Part shown: positions 51,627 through 62,110 of the stretch, in pieces
How the letters are laid out: each line of letters opens with the position of its first letter
How positions within the stretch are numbered: position 1 is the first letter of the stretch
DNA from: Phaeodactylibacter xiamenensis
Lineage (GTDB): Bacteria; Bacteroidota; Bacteroidia; Chitinophagales; Saprospiraceae
Direction of reading: 5' to 3'
NCBI RefSeq assembly: GCF_000759025.1
Contig: NZ_JPOS01000010.1
Coordinates: 244,233 to 308,232, forward strand
Length of the DNA: 64,000 nt
Position numbers and translations under genes: made by a program
The notes under the pieces: generated by a model
What the model was told of the DNA's origin: nothing
Database searches by the model: none
Seen by the model: the letters and a program-made list of their open reading frames with translations, nothing else

Positions 51627-51664
51627 AGGTTTTGTATTTTTGGGGCAGACGTAATCTCTGTACT
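51627..51664 (+). promoter_or_regulatory. Leader/promoter conserved upstream of Rpn copy 1
   Basis: AGGTTTTGTATTTTTGGGGCAGACGTAATCTCTGTACT|ATGCCC; contains TATTTTTG (TAnnTTTG). Confidence 0.6.
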
Positions 51665-52720
51665 ATGCCCCAAAATCTAAATATCTATCAGCCGGACGAC
51701 CGCTTTTTCAAGTCGGCTATGAGCGACCCGGAGGTGGTCAAAGCTTACCTTCAGCATTTCTATCCTAAAATTGCAGCTATTGCAGATCTTGCAAGCTTGA
51801 AGCTGGAAAACAGTGTCAGCCTGCGCCCCAGCCTGAAGCGATTCGAGGCGGACGTTATTTACCGCTGCCGGTTTCAGGGAGAGACTGATGGCTACTTCTA
51901 TTTTTGTTTGCTATTTGAGCATAAGTCCAAGCCCGATAAGTATGTTGCGGTGCAGGTTGGTCTATACCTTATGGAACTCCTGTCCAGCATGGTGAAAAAA
52001 CAGGGCCGGGAATTGGAGCCCGTACTGCCCCTCATTTTTTATAACGGTAAGGAAAAATGGATGCCGCAAACGCTGAGCGAGCTATTTCAGGGGCATCCGC
52101 ATTACGCTGTTTTGGAACCCTATATCCCTAATTTCCGTTTTTTATTTCAGGATGCTACGCGCCTTAGCCCGGAGGAGCTATTGCGGCTCGACCTGAGCTA
52201 TTTCCGCAGCGTACTGATGTCGATGGCTTTCCGGCACCGGCAGCACTTGATATTCAAGTACCTTCAGCTTATCTTTGAAGGGACGGACGGGAAAGAAAAG
52301 ATTATCGCAGTGACGACCTACATCCTGGGGGTGGCAGAGCGTTCGGAAGAAGAGTTCCTAAAGCAGATCCAAGACACAACATTCACGATAAAACCAGAAG
52401 TCATGAGTACTTTGGAGCAAATTTTGGAGAGAGGCCGAAAAGAAGGATTAGAGAAAGGCATGGACAGGGGGGCATACAAAAATAGCATTTTCAACCTGCT
52501 CAAAACTGCGGTACATTTCCCAGACTGGACTGCCGCGAAATTATCAGACTTCACAGAGCTGAGCCTGGAGGTGGTGACCACATTCCTGTCCGTCAAATCA
52601 CAGGGAGATGCTTTTGCGCTAAAAAAGCACGTCCTTCAGGACTTGCTGGCTGACATCCCGCTGAACGCGGAAGATGAGCAGAAGCTGGACCGGTTGATCG
52701 GGCAGTTGACCGGGGTATAA
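51665..52720 (+). CDS. Rpn-family (PD-(D/E)XK, recombination-promoting nuclease/putative transposase) protein, copy 1
   Basis: 'YQPDDRFFKSAMSDPEVVKAYLQHFYP...FEADVIYRCRF...YFYFCLLFEHKSKPDKYVAVQVGLYLMELL', 'PLIFYNGKEKW'. Confidence 0.9.
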   Translation: MPQNLNIYQPDDRFFKSAMSDPEVVKAYLQHFYPKIAAIADLASLKLENSVSLRPSLKRFEADVIYRCRFQGETDGYFYFCLLFEHKSKPDKYVAVQVGLYLMELLSSMVKKQGRELEPVLPLIFYNGKEKWMPQTLSELFQGHPHYAVLEPYIPNFRFLFQDATRLSPEELLRLDLSYFRSVLMSMAFRHRQHLIFKYLQLIFEGTDGKEKIIAVTTYILGVAERSEEEFLKQIQDTTFTIKPEVMSTLEQILERGRKEGLEKGMDRGAYKNSIFNLLKTAVHFPDWTAAKLSDFTELSLEVVTTFLSVKSQGDAFALKKHVLQDLLADIPLNAEDEQKLDRLIGQLTGV

Positions 52721-52954: not shown

Positions 52955-53207
52955 CATGTTTTCCAACCAAGCCAGAAATAACGCTCCATCCACACCCACC
53001 ACAAGCCTAAAAAACAACAATGTTTTAACGCAGCAACCTTGACATCCACAAATAAAAATCTTTTCTCTCCGGGTGCACCCACCGCTCGACATAGTTTCAC
53101 AACGAAGTCGATGCCTTCACCCGGCGCACTTAAAAACGAAACAGTTCATTCCTGTACGATCGGGTTGATTGAATTTATTTGTTTAAATTATTTTGGACCC
53201 TATTACA

Positions 53208-53243
53208 AGGTTTTGTATCTTAAGGGCGCTTAATCTCTATACC
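53208..53243 (+). promoter_or_regulatory. Leader/promoter conserved upstream of Rpn copy 2
   Basis: AGGTTTTGTATCTTAAGGGCGCTTAATCTCTATACC|ATGCCC, closely matching the copy-1 leader. Confidence 0.6.
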
Positions 53244-54320
53244 ATGCCCTCGAGACCCAAAATACATCAACCCGATGACCGCTTTTTCCGCCACGCTATG
53301 AGCAAGCCGGAGGTAGCAAAGCGGTATATTGAGCACTTCTATCCGGATATTGCCAGCATCACCGACCTCGGGAGCCTGAAGCTGGAAGGCAGCCTCAGCA
53401 TTCAGCCCAACCTAAGAGAATTCCAAGCCGATGTCATCTACCGCTGCCGCCTCCAACAAGACGGGGAGAAGCATCTGTACTTTTGCCTGCTGCTTGAGCA
53501 CAAATCACAGCCCGATAAATACGTGTCCGTGCAGGTCGGGCTATACATCATGGAGCTCATGCTGCGCTCCGTAAAAGAAGCCGGGCGGGAACTGGAGCTG
53601 GTGCTCCCCATCATATTCTATAACGGGAAAGAAAAATGGCAGCCCCTGACGCTCGCAGAGCTTTTTGCCGGCCATCCGCAGCTCGGCCTGCTGCAACCCT
53701 ATATCCCGAATTTCAGTTTTGTATTTCAGGACGTCTCGCAGCTCAGCACGAAGGAGCTGCTGCAGCTTGACCTGAGCTTTTTCAGGAGCGCCATCATGGC
53801 GTTATCCTTACGGCATCAGCCCTACTTGATTGTTAAATATCTTAGGCTTATTTTTGAAGGGGCAGACGGCAAGGCCAGCATCAGCGCACTGACCCATTAC
53901 ATCCTCGGAGTGGCAGAGCGCTCCGAACAAGAATTCAAAGCAATCATTGAAAACACGGACCTCGAAATAATACCAGATGTCATGAGCACACTTGAGCAAA
54001 TCCTGACCCGCGGCCGCAAAGAAGGCATGGAAAAAGGCAAACAAAAGGAGCGCATTTTCTACCTTTTGAAGACAGCACTCAAATTTCCGGAAATGTCGGC
54101 CGTTGACCTCGCTGACTTCACTGGGCTGCCTCAGGAAACCGTGCAGGGTTTTATCGATATCACCGCAAAAGGCGACAAAGACAAGCTCCTCAAATATGTG
54201 CAGGAAGAACTGCTTGCCGATATCCCGCTCAATGCAGAAGAAATGGAGAAGCTGCAGGAGCTGGTGGAAAAGCTGCTGGCAGGCACAGACAGGTATGGGT
54301 CGATTCCTAAAATAAGTTGA
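53244..54320 (+). CDS. Rpn-family nuclease/putative transposase protein, copy 2
   Basis: Paralog of copy 1 ('HQPDDRFFRHAMSKPEVAKRYIEHFYPDIASITDLGSLKLEGSLSIQPNLREFQADVIYRCRL...LLEHKSQPDKYVSVQVGLYIMELM'). The last codons overlap an IS-end-like repeat. Confidence 0.9.
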   Translation: MPSRPKIHQPDDRFFRHAMSKPEVAKRYIEHFYPDIASITDLGSLKLEGSLSIQPNLREFQADVIYRCRLQQDGEKHLYFCLLLEHKSQPDKYVSVQVGLYIMELMLRSVKEAGRELELVLPIIFYNGKEKWQPLTLAELFAGHPQLGLLQPYIPNFSFVFQDVSQLSTKELLQLDLSFFRSAIMALSLRHQPYLIVKYLRLIFEGADGKASISALTHYILGVAERSEQEFKAIIENTDLEIIPDVMSTLEQILTRGRKEGMEKGKQKERIFYLLKTALKFPEMSAVDLADFTGLPQETVQGFIDITAKGDKDKLLKYVQEELLADIPLNAEEMEKLQELVEKLLAGTDRYGSIPKIS

Positions 54321-54534: not shown

Positions 54535-55461
54535 TCATGCCTTCAAAACCTTTGCCGCTTTTGTCTTTTTCTTTCGTTGTTTCCATAGTTTTTTCAATGG
54601 TCCGCTGCCTTTTTCATGAGCTTGCTGCGGAGTCAGCATATTGCAGCTGCGGTGGGGCCTTCGGGTATTGTAAATGTGCACTGCCCTGGTGACCATTTCC
54701 ACAGCGTGCTCAAAGTTGTCAAAGGTGTCTGTAAGGAGCAGCTCATTTTTGATAATCCCATTGAGGCGCTCGCTGACAGGGTTGTCAGAAGCTTTCCCGT
54801 CCTGGGTCATGCTGGGCCCGATCTGGTGGCTGTCCAGAAAGCCTTGGAATAGCCCGCTTTTAAACTGGCTGCCCCGGTCAGAATGGAAAACCAGGCCAAA
54901 GCTAAACTTATAATCCAGTGGAGCCCCTTGTGCAGCCACCGCCATTTTCAGAGCCTCTAGCGTAGCTTGTGCGCTCATGTCCTGCGCTACGGTAAACCCC
55001 ACGATGAGATGGGAGTATTCGTCAACGACAAAGGTGGCGTAGCAATGCCTTCTGCCTTCCCTGAGCCACATATATGTTATGTCTGAGCACCAGAACTCGT
55101 TGGCTCGTTCTACAGGCCCTATTTCCTTTCTCAGGTCTGGCCATATGCTATTGCCGTCACCGTCCGTTAGCTTTGGCCCGCGCTTCCTATGCTTTTTCAC
55201 CAATAGCTTGTTGGCTCTTAGCAGGCTGTAAAGGGCGTCGCGGCCAATTAAAATGCCGGCTTGGCTGGCTAGCATATACTGTAGCTTCTCCGTACCGACC
55301 CGGGGCAGGTCTTTGCGCTGCTCCTTGACAAAGGCCAGTATGTGCCCATGCTTTTCCTGGCGGGTTTCCGCATTGCTTGTGCTTTTATGATAGGCCTGGC
55401 GGGTTTTGCCAAACAGTCTACATAGTTCGTCCAGGCTGACGTTACTATGTACCGCTTTCAT
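54535..55461 (-). CDS. IS3-family transposase OrfB (rve/DDE)
   Basis: 'RANEFWCSDITYMWLREGRRHCYATFVVDEYSHLIVGF', 'FHSDRGSQFKSGLFQGFLDSHQIGPSMTQDGKASDNPVSERLNGIIKNELL', 'YNTRRPHRSCNMLTPQQAH'. Confidence 0.95.
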   Translation of the reverse strand: MKAVHSNVSLDELCRLFGKTRQAYHKSTSNAETRQEKHGHILAFVKEQRKDLPRVGTEKLQYMLASQAGILIGRDALYSLLRANKLLVKKHRKRGPKLTDGDGNSIWPDLRKEIGPVERANEFWCSDITYMWLREGRRHCYATFVVDEYSHLIVGFTVAQDMSAQATLEALKMAVAAQGAPLDYKFSFGLVFHSDRGSQFKSGLFQGFLDSHQIGPSMTQDGKASDNPVSERLNGIIKNELLLTDTFDNFEHAVEMVTRAVHIYNTRRPHRSCNMLTPQQAHEKGSGPLKKLWKQRKKKTKAAKVLKA

Positions 55462-55832
55462 TTCTTCGACCGTTTGGCGCCAGACTTTTTTTCGATTGGC
55501 AGATTGTACTTCTGTTCTGCCAGTTTGATCATCGCCAGGTAAGCTTCGCTGCGCAGGCGTTCCTGTTCAAGCAAACGGCGCACACTGGCAAGCTCGGCCT
55601 CCAGTTCGTCTATGCTCTTTGTCCCTTTAGGTTCATCTGTCATAGCTTGGGGCAATTGTGTGCCTAAAATTTTTTCTTTACGGTCTAGCCAACGGTACAC
55701 AGTCATTTTACCGCCTATCCCGTATTCTTTTGATGCTTGGTTCGCGGTGATCTCGTTGGACAAGATACGCTTTAGCACTTGCTTTTTAAATGCTAAGGAA
55801 TAACCCGTGGGTTTTTGCCTGAAAGTTGTCAC
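55458..55832 (-). CDS. IS3-family transposase OrfA (HTH); GTG start
   Basis: 'YSLAFKKQVLKRILSNEITANQASKEYGIGGKMTVYRWLDRKEKIL'; ATGA overlap with OrfB. Confidence 0.92.
   Translation of the reverse strand: MTTFRQKPTGYSLAFKKQVLKRILSNEITANQASKEYGIGGKMTVYRWLDRKEKILGTQLPQAMTDEPKGTKSIDELEAELASVRRLLEQERLRSEAYLAMIKLAEQKYNLPIEKKSGAKRSKK
55485..55491 (-). promoter_or_regulatory. Programmed -1 frameshift heptamer A_AAA_AAG
   Basis: OrfA codons gaA AAA AAG (55493-55485). The -1 frame continues VWRQTVEEMKAVHSNVSLDEL... into OrfB with no stop. Confidence 0.75.
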
Positions 55833-56047: not shown

Positions 56048-59000
56048 ATGAGAAAACCTACCCGCCCCCTGTTTCACCTAATACTTTTCCTGGGGCTTAC
56101 TTCTTGTGCCAACTACCAGCTTAACTACAGCCCGGAGGCTTCCAACTGGGCAGCAGAATCTCCTCCACCGGACCAACCTTTAATGCACACGGTATTCCTG
56201 GTAGGGGATGCGGGCAAAGACAGCAATCCCGCTCTGGACCTATTGCAGTACAAGGTGCAGAATGCAGGAAAAGAAAGTACCGTCCTGTTTTTAGGGGACA
56301 ACATTTACCCCAATGGCATGGCCCCCAAATCAGGCGCAGACCGGGCACAGGACGAAGAACGCCTGAAAGCCCAGCTCAACACCGTATTGGATTACGAGGG
56401 GAATGTCTTTTTCATCGCTGGCAACCACGATTGGGACAAATACGGTATCGATGGCCTGAAGCGGCAGAAAAAATTCATCGAAAAGTACCTGAACAGGGAG
56501 GATGTGTTCTTCCCGGACCCCGGCTGTGGCGATCCGGAAGAAATAGAAATCAATGACAAGTTGGTCATCGTTTTGATTGATTCAGAATGGTACCTGTCTG
56601 ACTGGGACAAAGACTATCAGGTCAACGCAGGCTGTGAGGTCAAAAGCCGTGCTGTTTTTGCGGAGTTTATGGTAGAAGCCGTTAAGGGCAACCGCAATAA
56701 AGATGTACTCATCGCTATGCATCACCCGCCTTATTCCACAGGGCCGCATGGTGGGCAATTTACGTTCAAACAGCACTTGTTCCCGCTTACGGAGTTTGTG
56801 GAGCCGCTCTACCTTCCCTTGCCTGTAGTGGGGTCAATCTTTCAATTTTTGAGAGGTACAGTGGGCCACCGCCAAGATCTGATACACCCTAAATACCAGG
56901 AGCTTTCTGACATCGTGGTAGGCGCTGCCCGCCGCAATGGAAGTTTCGTGATTGCTTCGGGGCACGAGCACAGCCTTCAGTACATCGAGCAGGACGAACA
57001 ATCTTTTATCGTAAGCGGTGCGGGTTCAAAGACTACGGCTACCAACGCCCGCAACGGAGGGCAATTTGCCTACGGGCACCTTGGCTTCGCACAGCTGGAT
57101 TATTACGAGGACGGCTCTGCCTGGGTGAAATACTGGGTGCCTGATGCAGAAGAACCACTGGGCAAGCTGGTATTCCAAAAACAAGTGCAGCCTCCTTTGC
57201 CTAAGGTGGTGGAAGACTCGCCTGAGTCCTTTGAGCCACTGCAAGACTCCATCACGGTCAAGGTGAGTGAGAATGACTTTGAGCGGGGCAGGCTTTGGGA
57301 CTGGTTTTGGGGCAAACACTACCGGGGCGCCTATAACGCAACGGTGAAATTACCGGTCCTGGACCTGACCAGGTACAAAGGCGGGGTACGCCCGGTTAAG
57401 CGTGGCGGGGGGTATCAGACCAATTCCCTGCGGCTGGAGGGAGCAGATGGCCGGCAGTATGCCTTACGCTCCATCGACAAAGATGCCTCCCGTACCCTGG
57501 GCTACCCTTTCAATGAGTCCTTCGTGACGGCGGTATTAGAGGACAACTTTAGCGCGGCCCACCCCTTTGCTTCTATTGCAACCGCTGATTTGGCAAAAGC
57601 CGCAGGTATTTACTACACGCAGCCTAAGATGTTTTACCTGCCCCGGCAGCCGGCATTGGGCATCTACAATGAAGATTACGCCGGTGCTTTGTACACCGTG
57701 GAAGAGCGCCCCGATGACGAAGTTTGGAATGACTACGAGCAATTCGGCGCACCCAAGCGCATCCGCAGTACCCTCGATACCCGGGAACGGATACAGGAAG
57801 ACCACGATGAGCAGATTGACTATCCCTTCGTCGTTCGGAACCGCCTGTTTGATGTGCTCATCGGCGACTGGGACCGCCATGATGACCAATGGCGCTGGTC
57901 AGAAATTGACAGCGGAGAGGTCGATTACTACCGCCCCATTCCCAGAGACCGGGATCAGGCCTTCAGCAACTACGATGGGCTAATCCTGGAATTGGCCAAG
58001 GGCACCACCCCGGACATCAAAAAGCTAAAAGCCTACCGTGGCGATGAGAACCGCCTGGAATGGCTGGTCTACAACGGGCGCCACTTCGACCGTACCTTTT
58101 TGTCCGGTGCAGATTGGCCGGTTTGGGAAGCCGAAGCCCGCCATCTGAAGGAACAACTGACCGATGAAGTGATTGAGGAAGCCTTCAAAAACAACTGGCC
58201 TGGACCGGTCTATCAGCTGAATGCACCCGACATCATCCAAAAGCTAAAGGCCAGGCGGGATAACTTCATGGAAATTGCCCGCAAGTACTACGAGCTTATG
58301 GCGAAGGAAGTGGACATCGTTGGCACCTTCAAACGGGACCTGTTCGTCATTGAACGCATGGACGACGGCCGCACCCGGATCCGGGCTTACGACACCAACA
58401 GCAAATCCGAAAAGGAGCTCAAATTCTATGACCGTACCTTTCTTCCGGAAGAAACTAAAGAAATTGCCGTGTATGGCCTCACGGATCAGGATGTATTCCG
58501 GGTGAAAGGCACCTGCAGGAACAACTGCATCAAAGTCCGTATGATTGGCGGGGTAGGGCAGGACATTCTGGAAGACGAGTCGAACGGGAAAGGCCTGATT
58601 TATTATGATGCCAAAAACGAAGGTAACCTGCTTCAATCCGGTTCCAAAGCGAAAGTGAAAAGGCGTTTTGACCCCGCTTTCAATATTTACGACCGCGAAT
58701 CGAATGATTATAATTTCAATTACACCTCCCTCTTGCCTGCTGCCGGCTTCAATCCGGATGATGGCATCCTCCTTGGGCTGAGCGCGGCTTATACCACCTA
58801 TGGGTTTAAGAAAGACCCCTATGCCTCCCAGCATAAAATTGATATGAAATTCGCTACCGGTACGAATGGGTTTACCCTTGATTACCAGGGAGAGTTTATC
58901 GATCTTTTTGGGCCCTTTGAGCTTGGCCTGGATGCCGAATACCAAACGCCACTTTACTCCCGGAACTTCTACGGGCTGGGCAATGAAAGCATCAATATTG

Positions 59001-59785
59001 AAAACCTGCTGGACGACGAGGCCCTGAATTACAACCGCATCAAGCAGCGGGTGATTCGCGTGATGCCTTCGTTTATGCGCCGGCTCAATGCGCAGTCCAG
59101 AGTCCTTGTGGGCCCTACTTTTGAATCCATCGAAGTCGAGCGCACAGAAGGCCGCTACATTGATGAAATCGGCAACCGTTTTCAGGACGAACTCTTTGAT
59201 GGGCTGGAATTTGCCGGGCTTCGTTTCCTGCTCGACTACAGGACCCGGGACAACAACGCCATTCCTACCCGCGGACTGGGCTTCTTTTTGGAAGGTGGCT
59301 GGAAGCAACAGCTGGAAGAGGGGCGCAAAAACTTCGCCTACCTGAACACCTCATTTTCCGCCTATCAGCGCATCGACCGGCGGGGAAAGCTGGTATTTGC
59401 CACCCGGTTGGAGTTCCAGCACCGCTTCAATGAAGATTATGAGTTCTATCAGGGCGCAACCCTTGGCGGGCCTGGGGAGGGGGCGAACTTCCGGGGATTC
59501 CGACGCGACCGCTTCATTGGCTCTACTGCCTTTGTGCATAATACCGACCTGCGCTGGAAGACCATCACTTCGGAGAACCCGACGCTGCCCTTCTCCCTTG
59601 GGCTCATGGCTGGCTTTGACCACGGCCGGGTATGGCTGCGCGGCGAAGATTCGGAGGTCTGGCACTACAGCTACGGCGGCGGCATCTGGCTTAGCCCCTT
59701 TGACTTATTTGTAGTAAGTGGTGGCGTCTACCGGGGTGATAATAAGGACAATCGGGTGGTGGTGACGGGCGGCTTCTTTTTTTAG
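56048..59785 (+). CDS. Lipoprotein-signal metallophosphoesterase / kinase-like / outer-membrane beta-barrel fusion
   Basis: Lipobox 'GLTSCANY'; MPP motifs 'FLVGDAG', 'GDNIYPNG', 'GNHDWD', 'HHPPYSTGPHGG', 'ASGHEHSLQ'; middle 'GRQYALRSIDKD...VLIGDWDRHDDQWRW...YRPIPRDRDQAFS'; C-terminal ~400 aa barrel ending 'VVTGGFFF'. Confidence 0.9.
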   Translation: MRKPTRPLFHLILFLGLTSCANYQLNYSPEASNWAAESPPPDQPLMHTVFLVGDAGKDSNPALDLLQYKVQNAGKESTVLFLGDNIYPNGMAPKSGADRAQDEERLKAQLNTVLDYEGNVFFIAGNHDWDKYGIDGLKRQKKFIEKYLNREDVFFPDPGCGDPEEIEINDKLVIVLIDSEWYLSDWDKDYQVNAGCEVKSRAVFAEFMVEAVKGNRNKDVLIAMHHPPYSTGPHGGQFTFKQHLFPLTEFVEPLYLPLPVVGSIFQFLRGTVGHRQDLIHPKYQELSDIVVGAARRNGSFVIASGHEHSLQYIEQDEQSFIVSGAGSKTTATNARNGGQFAYGHLGFAQLDYYEDGSAWVKYWVPDAEEPLGKLVFQKQVQPPLPKVVEDSPESFEPLQDSITVKVSENDFERGRLWDWFWGKHYRGAYNATVKLPVLDLTRYKGGVRPVKRGGGYQTNSLRLEGADGRQYALRSIDKDASRTLGYPFNESFVTAVLEDNFSAAHPFASIATADLAKAAGIYYTQPKMFYLPRQPALGIYNEDYAGALYTVEERPDDEVWNDYEQFGAPKRIRSTLDTRERIQEDHDEQIDYPFVVRNRLFDVLIGDWDRHDDQWRWSEIDSGEVDYYRPIPRDRDQAFSNYDGLILELAKGTTPDIKKLKAYRGDENRLEWLVYNGRHFDRTFLSGADWPVWEAEARHLKEQLTDEVIEEAFKNNWPGPVYQLNAPDIIQKLKARRDNFMEIARKYYELMAKEVDIVGTFKRDLFVIERMDDGRTRIRAYDTNSKSEKELKFYDRTFLPEETKEIAVYGLTDQDVFRVKGTCRNNCIKVRMIGGVGQDILEDESNGKGLIYYDAKNEGNLLQSGSKAKVKRRFDPAFNIYDRESNDYNFNYTSLLPAAGFNPDDGILLGLSAAYTTYGFKKDPYASQHKIDMKFATGTNGFTLDYQGEFIDLFGPFELGLDAEYQTPLYSRNFYGLGNESINIENLLDDEALNYNRIKQRVIRVMPSFMRRLNAQSRVLVGPTFESIEVERTEGRYIDEIGNRFQDELFDGLEFAGLRFLLDYRTRDNNAIPTRGLGFFLEGGWKQQLEEGRKNFAYLNTSFSAYQRIDRRGKLVFATRLEFQHRFNEDYEFYQGATLGGPGEGANFRGFRRDRFIGSTAFVHNTDLRWKTITSENPTLPFSLGLMAGFDHGRVWLRGEDSEVWHYSYGGGIWLSPFDLFVVSGGVYRGDNKDNRVVVTGGFFF

Positions 59786-59972: not shown

Positions 59973-60058
59973 TTAATCCGATTGTTTAAAAACCAGTTAA
60001 CCTTCAATTTATACCAATTGGCGTTTTTGCGGTCGATTTTTTCATCCAAAAATTGATC

Positions 60059-62110
60059 ATGAAAAAGACCCTCTTTCTTTTGGCCATCCTACTGCCAGTC
60101 AGCTTGCTGGCACAGGACCAACTTTTGCACAACGACCGGGTGGAAGCCCGCCATAATCCAACAACTTTTAATCCCAACTGGGCACCGTTCTACCATGGAG
60201 TGGCTTCCGGTGACCCCCTGGAAGACCGGGTCATCATCTGGACACGGGTCACCCCTGCAGAAATGGACAATATGCCCATTGAAGTAGACTGGTTCGTAGC
60301 CACCGATGCAAACATGAGCAACATCGTTCAAAACGGGACTTTCACCACCGGGCCGGAGCGTGACTACACGGTAAAAGTGGATGTGACCGGGCTTGCATCC
60401 GGTACGACTTACTACTACGCATTCTCTGCCAACGGTGCAAATTCGCTTATCGGTAAAACCAAGACTACGCCCACTGCGGATGAAGCCAGCCACTTGAAGT
60501 TTGGCGTGGTGTCCTGTTCTAATTTTCAGGCCGGCTACTTTAATGCCTACAAGCGCCTTTCGGAGCGTACGGACCTGGACGCGATCATTCACCTCGGCGA
60601 TTATATTTACGAATACGCCGATGGGGGCTACGGTGATAGCACTCTGACCGCCAACCGCCCGCTTGAGCCTTCCACTGAAATCGTTACCCTGGAAGAGTAC
60701 CGCGCACGCTATTCCACCTATCGCCTTGATACCGCCCTGGCACGCGCCCATCAGCAGCATCCTTTTATTGCCGTATGGGACGACCACGAGAGTGCGAATG
60801 ATGCCTACACCGATGGTGCCCAAAACCACACCGAAGGCGATGAAGGTAGCTGGACAGACCGCAAAGCTGTTGCCAAGCAAGTCTACTTTGAGTGGATGCC
60901 AATTCGGCAAAATGCAGACGAGAGCATCTACCGCACCATCCGCTACGGCAATCTCATGGACCTCATTATGCTGGATACCCGGCTGGAAGGGCGGGAGGAG
61001 CAAATTCTGGACATCGAATCTCCCGAATTGTATGATCCGGAGCGCACCCTTCTGGGGGAAACGCAGCGGGCCTGGTTCCTGGAGCAGCTCTCAACTTCTG
61101 CGGCCAAGTGGAAAGTCATCGGGCAGCAGGTGATTTTCTCTGAGCTTAACGTGGGGTGGGCAGCACTGCTCGATCCTAACGGGGCTACCTATCAGCAACT
61201 GGAGAGTACTTTTCTGGACATTTGGGATGGTTATCCGGCGGAGCGTTCAGCCATCATTGAGCACATTAGCACAAATGATATCGATAATGTGGTCATTCTG
61301 ACCGGAGATTTCCACAGCACCTTCGCTTTCGATGTGACGGGAATGCCAGTGGATTTGCAGTTCCAGGATATTCCAAATGTTGGTACGCTACCTTTCTATA
61401 ATACCTCTGGCACGTATGATCCGACAGATGGTTCCGGCTCAGTAGCCGTAGAATTTGCTGTGCCAAGTGTGACTTCCGCGAATTTTGATGAGAATGTGGG
61501 GGCTCCTACTGCCGTTGTTTTCGAAGGTCAAATTAACACCCCAATCGCGGCAGGGCCACTACAACTGGGTAATCCCAACCCTCATATGAAGTACACTGAC
61601 CTCATTCAGCATGGTTACTTTGTACTTGACGTCAGAGAAGAGCAGGCACAAGCCGACTGGTTCTTCACTGACATCAGCCAGATTGTGGAGGAGGAAGCCT
61701 TTGGTGAAGGCTGGCTGACACTCGATACCGAGAACCACCTTCAAATTGCAGCCGGTCCTGCAGAGCCAAAAGACATACAGGACATACCTGCGCCTAACGA
61801 CCCACCGGCTATTCTGAGCAATGTGGAAGAAACGATCAACCGGGCAGATCAGGGATTTGTGGTGCTTTCGGTCCACCCCAATCCTTTCCGGGACATCAAT
61901 ACGCTGCACTACGCGCTTTCCCAAAAGGCACAAGTGCACATCGCGCTCCACGATGCCACCGGCAAACAGGTACGCCAACTGCTGCATCAAGAAATGCAGC
62001 CCGGCGTTTTCTCGCTTCAGTTGGATGCGAGCGGGCTACAGGCCGGCACCTATTTTTACCAGATTGCGGTCAACGGTCAACAACAAACCGTGAAAGTGAT
62101 ACTCAAGTAA
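60059..62110 (+). CDS. PhoD-like alkaline phosphatase with T9SS sorting domain
   Basis: 'FYHGVASGDPLEDRVIIWTRVTP', 'HLGDYIYEYADGGYGD', 'AVWDDHESANDAY', 'VILTGDFHSTFAFD'; C-term 'LSVHPNPFRDINTLHYAL...LQAGTYFYQIAVNGQQQTVKVILK'. Confidence 0.93.
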   Translation: MKKTLFLLAILLPVSLLAQDQLLHNDRVEARHNPTTFNPNWAPFYHGVASGDPLEDRVIIWTRVTPAEMDNMPIEVDWFVATDANMSNIVQNGTFTTGPERDYTVKVDVTGLASGTTYYYAFSANGANSLIGKTKTTPTADEASHLKFGVVSCSNFQAGYFNAYKRLSERTDLDAIIHLGDYIYEYADGGYGDSTLTANRPLEPSTEIVTLEEYRARYSTYRLDTALARAHQQHPFIAVWDDHESANDAYTDGAQNHTEGDEGSWTDRKAVAKQVYFEWMPIRQNADESIYRTIRYGNLMDLIMLDTRLEGREEQILDIESPELYDPERTLLGETQRAWFLEQLSTSAAKWKVIGQQVIFSELNVGWAALLDPNGATYQQLESTFLDIWDGYPAERSAIIEHISTNDIDNVVILTGDFHSTFAFDVTGMPVDLQFQDIPNVGTLPFYNTSGTYDPTDGSGSVAVEFAVPSVTSANFDENVGAPTAVVFEGQINTPIAAGPLQLGNPNPHMKYTDLIQHGYFVLDVREEQAQADWFFTDISQIVEEEAFGEGWLTLDTENHLQIAAGPAEPKDIQDIPAPNDPPAILSNVEETINRADQGFVVLSVHPNPFRDINTLHYALSQKAQVHIALHDATGKQVRQLLHQEMQPGVFSLQLDASGLQAGTYFYQIAVNGQQQTVKVILK

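Follow-up and report, generated by a model that had tools for sequence, protein, structure and literature searches.

Architecture of the locus

Here we analyse a 64,000-nucleotide stretch of the Phaeodactylibacter xiamenensis genome (hereafter the window), which carries an intact reading frame open for 1245 codons and encoding an unusual envelope protein of 1245 aa (Table 1). The frame begins with a putative signal peptide and the SPII-type lipobox LTSC that the first-pass annotation had pointed out, found again both by eye and by alignment to end at C20; its cysteine is aligned in 77 of 104 near-complete fusions of the same type. Downstream of the lipobox lie four parts: a metallophosphoesterase (MPE), a kinase-fold domain, a small beta domain and a 16-strand Omp85/BamA-type barrel. 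The three parts proposed originally are real, but the beta domain between kinase and barrel had been overlooked. Pfam matches are confined to the two ends of the protein (Metallophos, residues 49-241, E 2e-8; Omp85, residues 959-1234, E 7e-7), apart from a further, sub-threshold match of ShlB to the barrel, and residues ~390-890 have zero Pfam matches. The barrel is the sole part named by NCBIfam (Omp85_fam, E 2e-23, below cut-off).

Table 1. Coordinates of the fusion gene, its parts and the split version of the architecture
Feature	Position	Strand	Length or basis
Whole ORF, MPE-kinase-beta-Omp85 fusion	56048..59785	+	1245 aa
Putative signal peptide and SPII lipobox LTSC (C20)	56048..56107	+	Sequence
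MPE, residues 46-385, purple-acid-phosphatase-like with GDxxY	56183..57202	+	Pfam PF00149 E 2e-8, fold, conservation
Kinase-fold domain, residues 398-755	57239..58312	+	AF2, Foldseek PDB, CtkA by sequence profile
Gly-rich loop GGG, residues 453-455, between predicted beta1 and beta2	57404..57412	+	AF2, conservation
beta3 with R474 and K478 (VAIK-Lys candidates)	57467..57481	+	R474 156/156, K478 154/156
Catalytic loop GDWDRHDDQW, residues 606-615: D609 (base), H611, Q614 replacing the usual Asn	57863..57892	+	Conservation, CtkA alignment
Metal-binding motif PRDRDQ, residues 632-637 (D634, D636), directly after beta8	57941..57958	+	Conservation
Beta-rich connector domain with IGGxGxD motif, residues 755-880	58310..58687	+	AF2, domain HMM matches
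16-strand Omp85/BamA-type barrel, no POTRA	58715..59782	+	Pfam, NCBIfam, AF2, BamA fold match
Omp85 L6-type motif RGFRRDRFIG, residues 1149-1158, between strands 11 and 12	59492..59521	+	Conservation, AF2
Split version (ABC-2 exporter genes before, MgtE after)	L189:7129-11097; L190:4838-8793		

The next gene downstream (60053-62110, forward strand) encodes a phosphatase of the PhoD type that, according to the Pfam scan, carries PhoD_N as well as a type IX secretion (T9SS) tail. A Riemerella metallophosphoesterase with virulence data was considered as a counterpart of the fusion and rejected, since it is cited as a T9SS effector and is thus closer to this T9SS-tailed PhoD. Directly upstream of the fusion gene the ORFs read as an IS3-like transposase pair (54535-55832, reverse strand), preceded by two similar tandem ORFs (51632-52720 and 53193-54320, forward strand) that by eye resemble Rpn/PD-(D/E)XK transposase-family proteins.

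A kinase fold in the middle region

Modelled by AF2 from an alignment of 22 homologous middle regions, the region between MPE and barrel gave a mean pLDDT of 90.8 and a pTM of 0.91, and on the strength of this model it almost certainly has a kinase fold. A Foldseek search of the PDB placed chains of CtkA, the Helicobacter pylori Ser/Thr kinase (3akj, 3akk, 3akl), at the top (E 3.9e-6; by target length, TM 0.55). Next came PI4KII-alpha, YihE, Rio2, HipT and Fam20C (E 1e-3 for Fam20C), all of which we take to be kinase-fold proteins; CotH was absent among the 50 best matches. The DSSP assignment, converted to ORF residues by an offset of 397, runs through beta1 (447-453), Gly loop (453-457), beta2 (458-465), beta3 (470-478), alphaC (492-503), beta4 (527-531), beta5 (547-553, with E552), alphaE (592-605), catalytic loop (606-614), beta7 (615-621), beta8 (626-632) and metal motif (634-636), and so satisfies the complete two-lobe order of a protein-kinase-like domain. 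The kinase-like character suspected by the first-pass annotation is thereby borne out, with the predicted fold being neither a linker nor an extension of the phosphoesterase, although its limits of ~57360-58240 have to be widened to about 57239-58312. Of the kinases that it named for comparison (Fam20C, CotH and HipA), Fam20C and the HipA-type HipT are fold matches; the domain stands closest to CtkA/HipA and PI4K, not to CotH.

At the sequence level the resemblance to known kinases is no more than marginal (E 0.05 for CtkA, 0.06 for CotH). A direct search of the middle domain against the PDB returned nothing usable, but a profile built from a wider family alignment that includes stand-alone members again ranked CtkA first, at a weak E of 0.049. 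In this alignment the CtkA segment GNFDRHNGNWGF faces the family motif DWDRHxxQWxW, with GNFDRHNGNW set against GDWDRHDDQW, and D609, H611 and Q614 fall on CtkA positions 155, 157 and 160; the catalytic residues of CtkA are presumably D155, N160 and D179. Against CotH, hhalign aligned the metal motif at E 0.064, short of significance. In profile-profile comparison the alignments with CotH and HipA were by far the longest, and CotH scored best against shuffled and reversed controls, in neither case significantly. Neither the window protein nor any of 22 family members has a Pfam match to CotH (PF08757), and the window protein and 21 of the 22 have none to HipA_C (PF07804). The exception is the stand-alone relative L030 (E 0.0013 to 0.0017), whose 18.5 bits lie below the curated cut-off of 30.5.

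The putative active-site motifs sit exactly where they had been reported, GDWDRHDDQWRW at 57863-57898 (residue 606 beginning at 57863) and PRDRDQAF at 57941-57964, and both DRH and DRD are conserved across 156 kinase domains drawn from three architectures. R474, D607, R610 and D634 are invariant in all 156, with K478 (154), E552 (153), D609 (152), H611 (151), Q614 (153) and D636 (155) nearly so. Given at least 595 homologous stretches and the invariance of D607, R610 and D634, these motifs are far from chance. Gln in place of the catalytic-loop Asn, found in 153 of the 156, is a signature of the family; L030, the same member that touches HipA_C, keeps the usual kinase Asn (DWDRHAKNW). At three loci (L181-L183) two or three kinase-plus-beta genes stand side by side, and in L182 DRH has changed to SRR.

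The phosphoesterase and the barrel

The MPE scores 35.3 bits against a PF00149 cut-off of 21.5, and the complete calcineurin-like motif set claimed for it is present: D54, GDNIY (83-87), GNHD (125-128), HHP (225-227) and GHEH (305-308), with all metal ligands intact. Its matches in the PDB are purple acid phosphatases by sequence, weakly, and GAP50 by fold (3tgh, E 8.5e-11). Cys160 and Cys196, each conserved in 95 of the 104 fusions, are a possible disulfide.

To compare the two enzymes we scored seven MPE ligands and five kinase residues in the 104 fusions. All seven ligands are kept in 81, and two or more are missing in 21, one of which (L081) owes this to a start called late. All five kinase residues are present in 101 fusions, the remaining three missing just one, and both sets are intact in the window protein. 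Selection thus keeps a tighter hold on the kinase than on the phosphatase and, because the MPE is degenerate in 21 of 104 fusions while the kinase is essentially intact, kinase plus barrel is the core.

A full-length AF2 model (residues 46-1245; pLDDT 89.3, pTM 0.80) contains 16 barrel strands, and its best PDB fold matches are BamA (TM 0.66 to the isolated BamA barrel) and, for the MPE, GAP50. The Pfam Omp85 score is 29.5 bits against a cut-off of 24, and the RGF..RF.G motif of L6 is near-invariant among the fusions (R1149 in 103 of 104, R1155 and G1158 in all). The outer-membrane barrel proposed earlier is accordingly confirmed and can be assigned to the Omp85/BamA type, but it starts at about 58715 and not right after 58240. 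The Pfam scan found no POTRA domains, and the region ahead of the barrel is taken up by the kinase and beta domains, the latter of which, according to the domain HMM, accompanies the kinase in most of the versions that exceed about 500 aa.

The N-terminal domains of Omp85 proteins are periplasmic. An acidic surface-export signal following the lipobox cysteine is known from Bacteroidota, and the residues just after the cysteine here include no acidic ones, hence no obvious signal of this kind. The conserved cysteine pair would suit an oxidising compartment. On these three grounds we take a periplasmic location of the enzyme domains as the default.

Distribution and architectures

Relatives were found in 19 of 40 near relatives searched, two of the 19 (L018 and L019) matching by the MPE only, and the at least 595 homologous stretches in reference genomes belong to Bacteroidota plus one Gemmatimonadales. 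Over the phylum, 143 of 396 sampled genomes contain relatives of the kinase domain, which is present in a single copy in the P. xiamenensis genome and has no family entry in Pfam or NCBIfam. Viral contigs were without any relatives, and a phage origin was rejected.

Open frames fall into length classes: about 1240 aa for MPE-kinase-barrel, about 870-960 aa for kinase-barrel, about 515-560 aa for the kinase with its beta domain, and about 425 aa for the kinase by itself, either anchored in the membrane or as a lipoprotein. Barrel-less stand-alone kinase copies occur at L030 and L184-L188. In two genomes (L189 and L190) the modules are spread over three neighbouring genes, first the kinase lipoprotein, then the MPE, then the barrel, and this split operon shows that the modules belong together even when unfused. 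On a FastTree phylogeny of the kinase domain, architecture changes 9 times compared with a shuffled mean of 38.7, and fusion states are therefore inherited by clades.

Gene neighbourhood

We examined about 8 kb around 40 further loci from genomes across the phylum, whose relatedness means that the counts are not independent, together with 20 arbitrary control windows, which came from a subset of these genomes. The commonest neighbour was an HD-PycTM protein (26 of 40 loci), followed by an SdiA-regulated propeller (17), a SixA-type histidine phosphatase (10) and the polyphosphate kinase PPK1 (8), none of which occurred in the 20 controls; a generic histidine-kinase profile matched loci and controls alike. 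The propeller lipoprotein usually lies directly upstream on the same strand, with a median gap of 19 bp. No Pycsar system is evident around the proteins combining an HD domain with a PycTM membrane part (L077:7555-8736 and relatives). A 787-aa protein family with zero Pfam matches (L103:129-2489 and relatives) recurs near Flavobacteria-like loci, and at L193, L196, L198 and L199 a CotH kinase gene and an adjoining Porin_O_P gene lie within a few genes of the one for the kinase-barrel protein. The window gene itself adjoins neither PPK1 nor HD-PycTM; in its genome PPK1 and PycTM proteins are on other contigs.

Interpretation and rival explanations

The explanation that we favour, with a probability of about 0.55, is an outer-membrane-tethered, most likely periplasmic and competent atypical kinase with an accessory MPE and an envelope substrate; that the domain is an active phosphotransferase is somewhat more probable. 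The kinase fold and small beta domain would occupy the place of POTRA in other Omp85 proteins, the kinase part being held beneath the BamA-type barrel and by the N-terminal lipid, and an envelope substrate meeting the barrel would be phosphorylated there. The purple-acid-phosphatase-like MPE would serve as an accessory hydrolase whose phospho-compound is that of the kinase or a related one; the MPE can be lost, degenerate or separately encoded. We infer that the protein would be enzymatically active and periplasmic in topology, that its substrate would lie in the envelope and that the two activities might oppose each other. Given the polyphosphate-kinase neighbourhood, polyphosphate metabolism is the best lead, and just a lead, on the phosphate donor. 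Counted against this explanation are the marginal sequence-level resemblance to known kinases, the periplasm, which is generally held to lack ATP, the loop Gln, which could alter metal binding, and the position of the window gene apart from PPK1 and HD-PycTM.

Some of the same observations could be accommodated by a kinase fold with other or no chemistry, such as a SelO-like adenylyltransferase or a glutamylase, or else a sensor of nucleotides or polyphosphate that gates the barrel or the MPE: nearly all members have Gln for Asn, there is no known periplasmic ATP, and SelO itself neighbours a few loci. Pseudokinases, however, usually lose some of the Lys, catalytic Asp and metal Asps, all of which are retained here, and we regard this explanation as unlikely. 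Less likely still is a phosphate or polyphosphate unit in which barrel and MPE would release or move phosphate while the kinase fold would shuttle it among polyphosphate, small phospho-compounds and acceptors. PPK1, SixA, PAP2 and HD-PycTM do cluster across architectures, CotH and Porin_O_P genes are adjacent at four loci, and the next gene in the window is PhoD, but PPK1, a housekeeping gene of wide occurrence, is linked at a small minority of loci and not in the genome of the window, and synteny can reflect inheritance. We rate lower again the more ambitious proposal of periplasmic phosphotransfer from a non-ATP donor (e.g. polyphosphate) by a barrel-borne kinase and phosphatase, as a phylum-wide envelope phosphorylation system of Bacteroidota. 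A BamA-type barrel that retains its L6 RGF motif and lacks POTRA might instead be chiefly an outer-membrane insertase or translocator, the kinase-fold domain being a POTRA-replacing docking platform of little enzymatic role; this is improbable, as invariant catalytic residues would then be needless and stand-alone copies exist that have no barrel. The idea that the middle region, which has no Pfam match, is a mere linker or MPE extension is barely credible against a confident kinase fold and a module also found on separate genes.

Relation to known proteins

CtkA, the best match by both fold and sequence profile, shares 10% identity with the kinase domain of the window protein, has Asn where the latter has Gln, and is a free secreted kinase and not part of an envelope fusion. 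HipA/HipT-type kinases are linked by fold and by a D-x-H-x-x-N-like loop, although L030 is alone in approaching the HipA_C profile. The extracytoplasmic kinases CotH and Fam20C are approached by profile and by fold, respectively, but neither gives a Pfam match. With BamA and TamA the window protein shares the 16-strand barrel and the RGF-type motif of L6, but it has enzyme domains in place of POTRA.

Half of the architecture had been described before. A 'Metallo' subfamily of Omp85 proteins, with PF00149 plus an Omp85 barrel, goes back to Heinz and Lithgow (2014; PMC4104836), who termed PF00149 a metalloprotease and made no mention of a kinase domain. Their subfamily probably comprises these same MPE-barrel fusions, which have been filed so far as 'Omp85 metalloprotease'. 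Recent papers on TamL and BAM of Bacteroidota do not discuss the fusion protein, and full-text literature searches found no description of the kinase-fold domain, which is apparently new within the databases and literature searched.

As judged from sequence and model, the domain points to the transfer of phosphate groups within the cell envelope and, if active, would be to our knowledge the first kinase that forms one polypeptide with an outer-membrane barrel, raising the testable question of phosphate transfer where ATP is thought absent. A kinase-fold family whose putative active-site residues are conserved, invisible to Pfam and NCBIfam, is present in about one third of the sampled Bacteroidota genomes.
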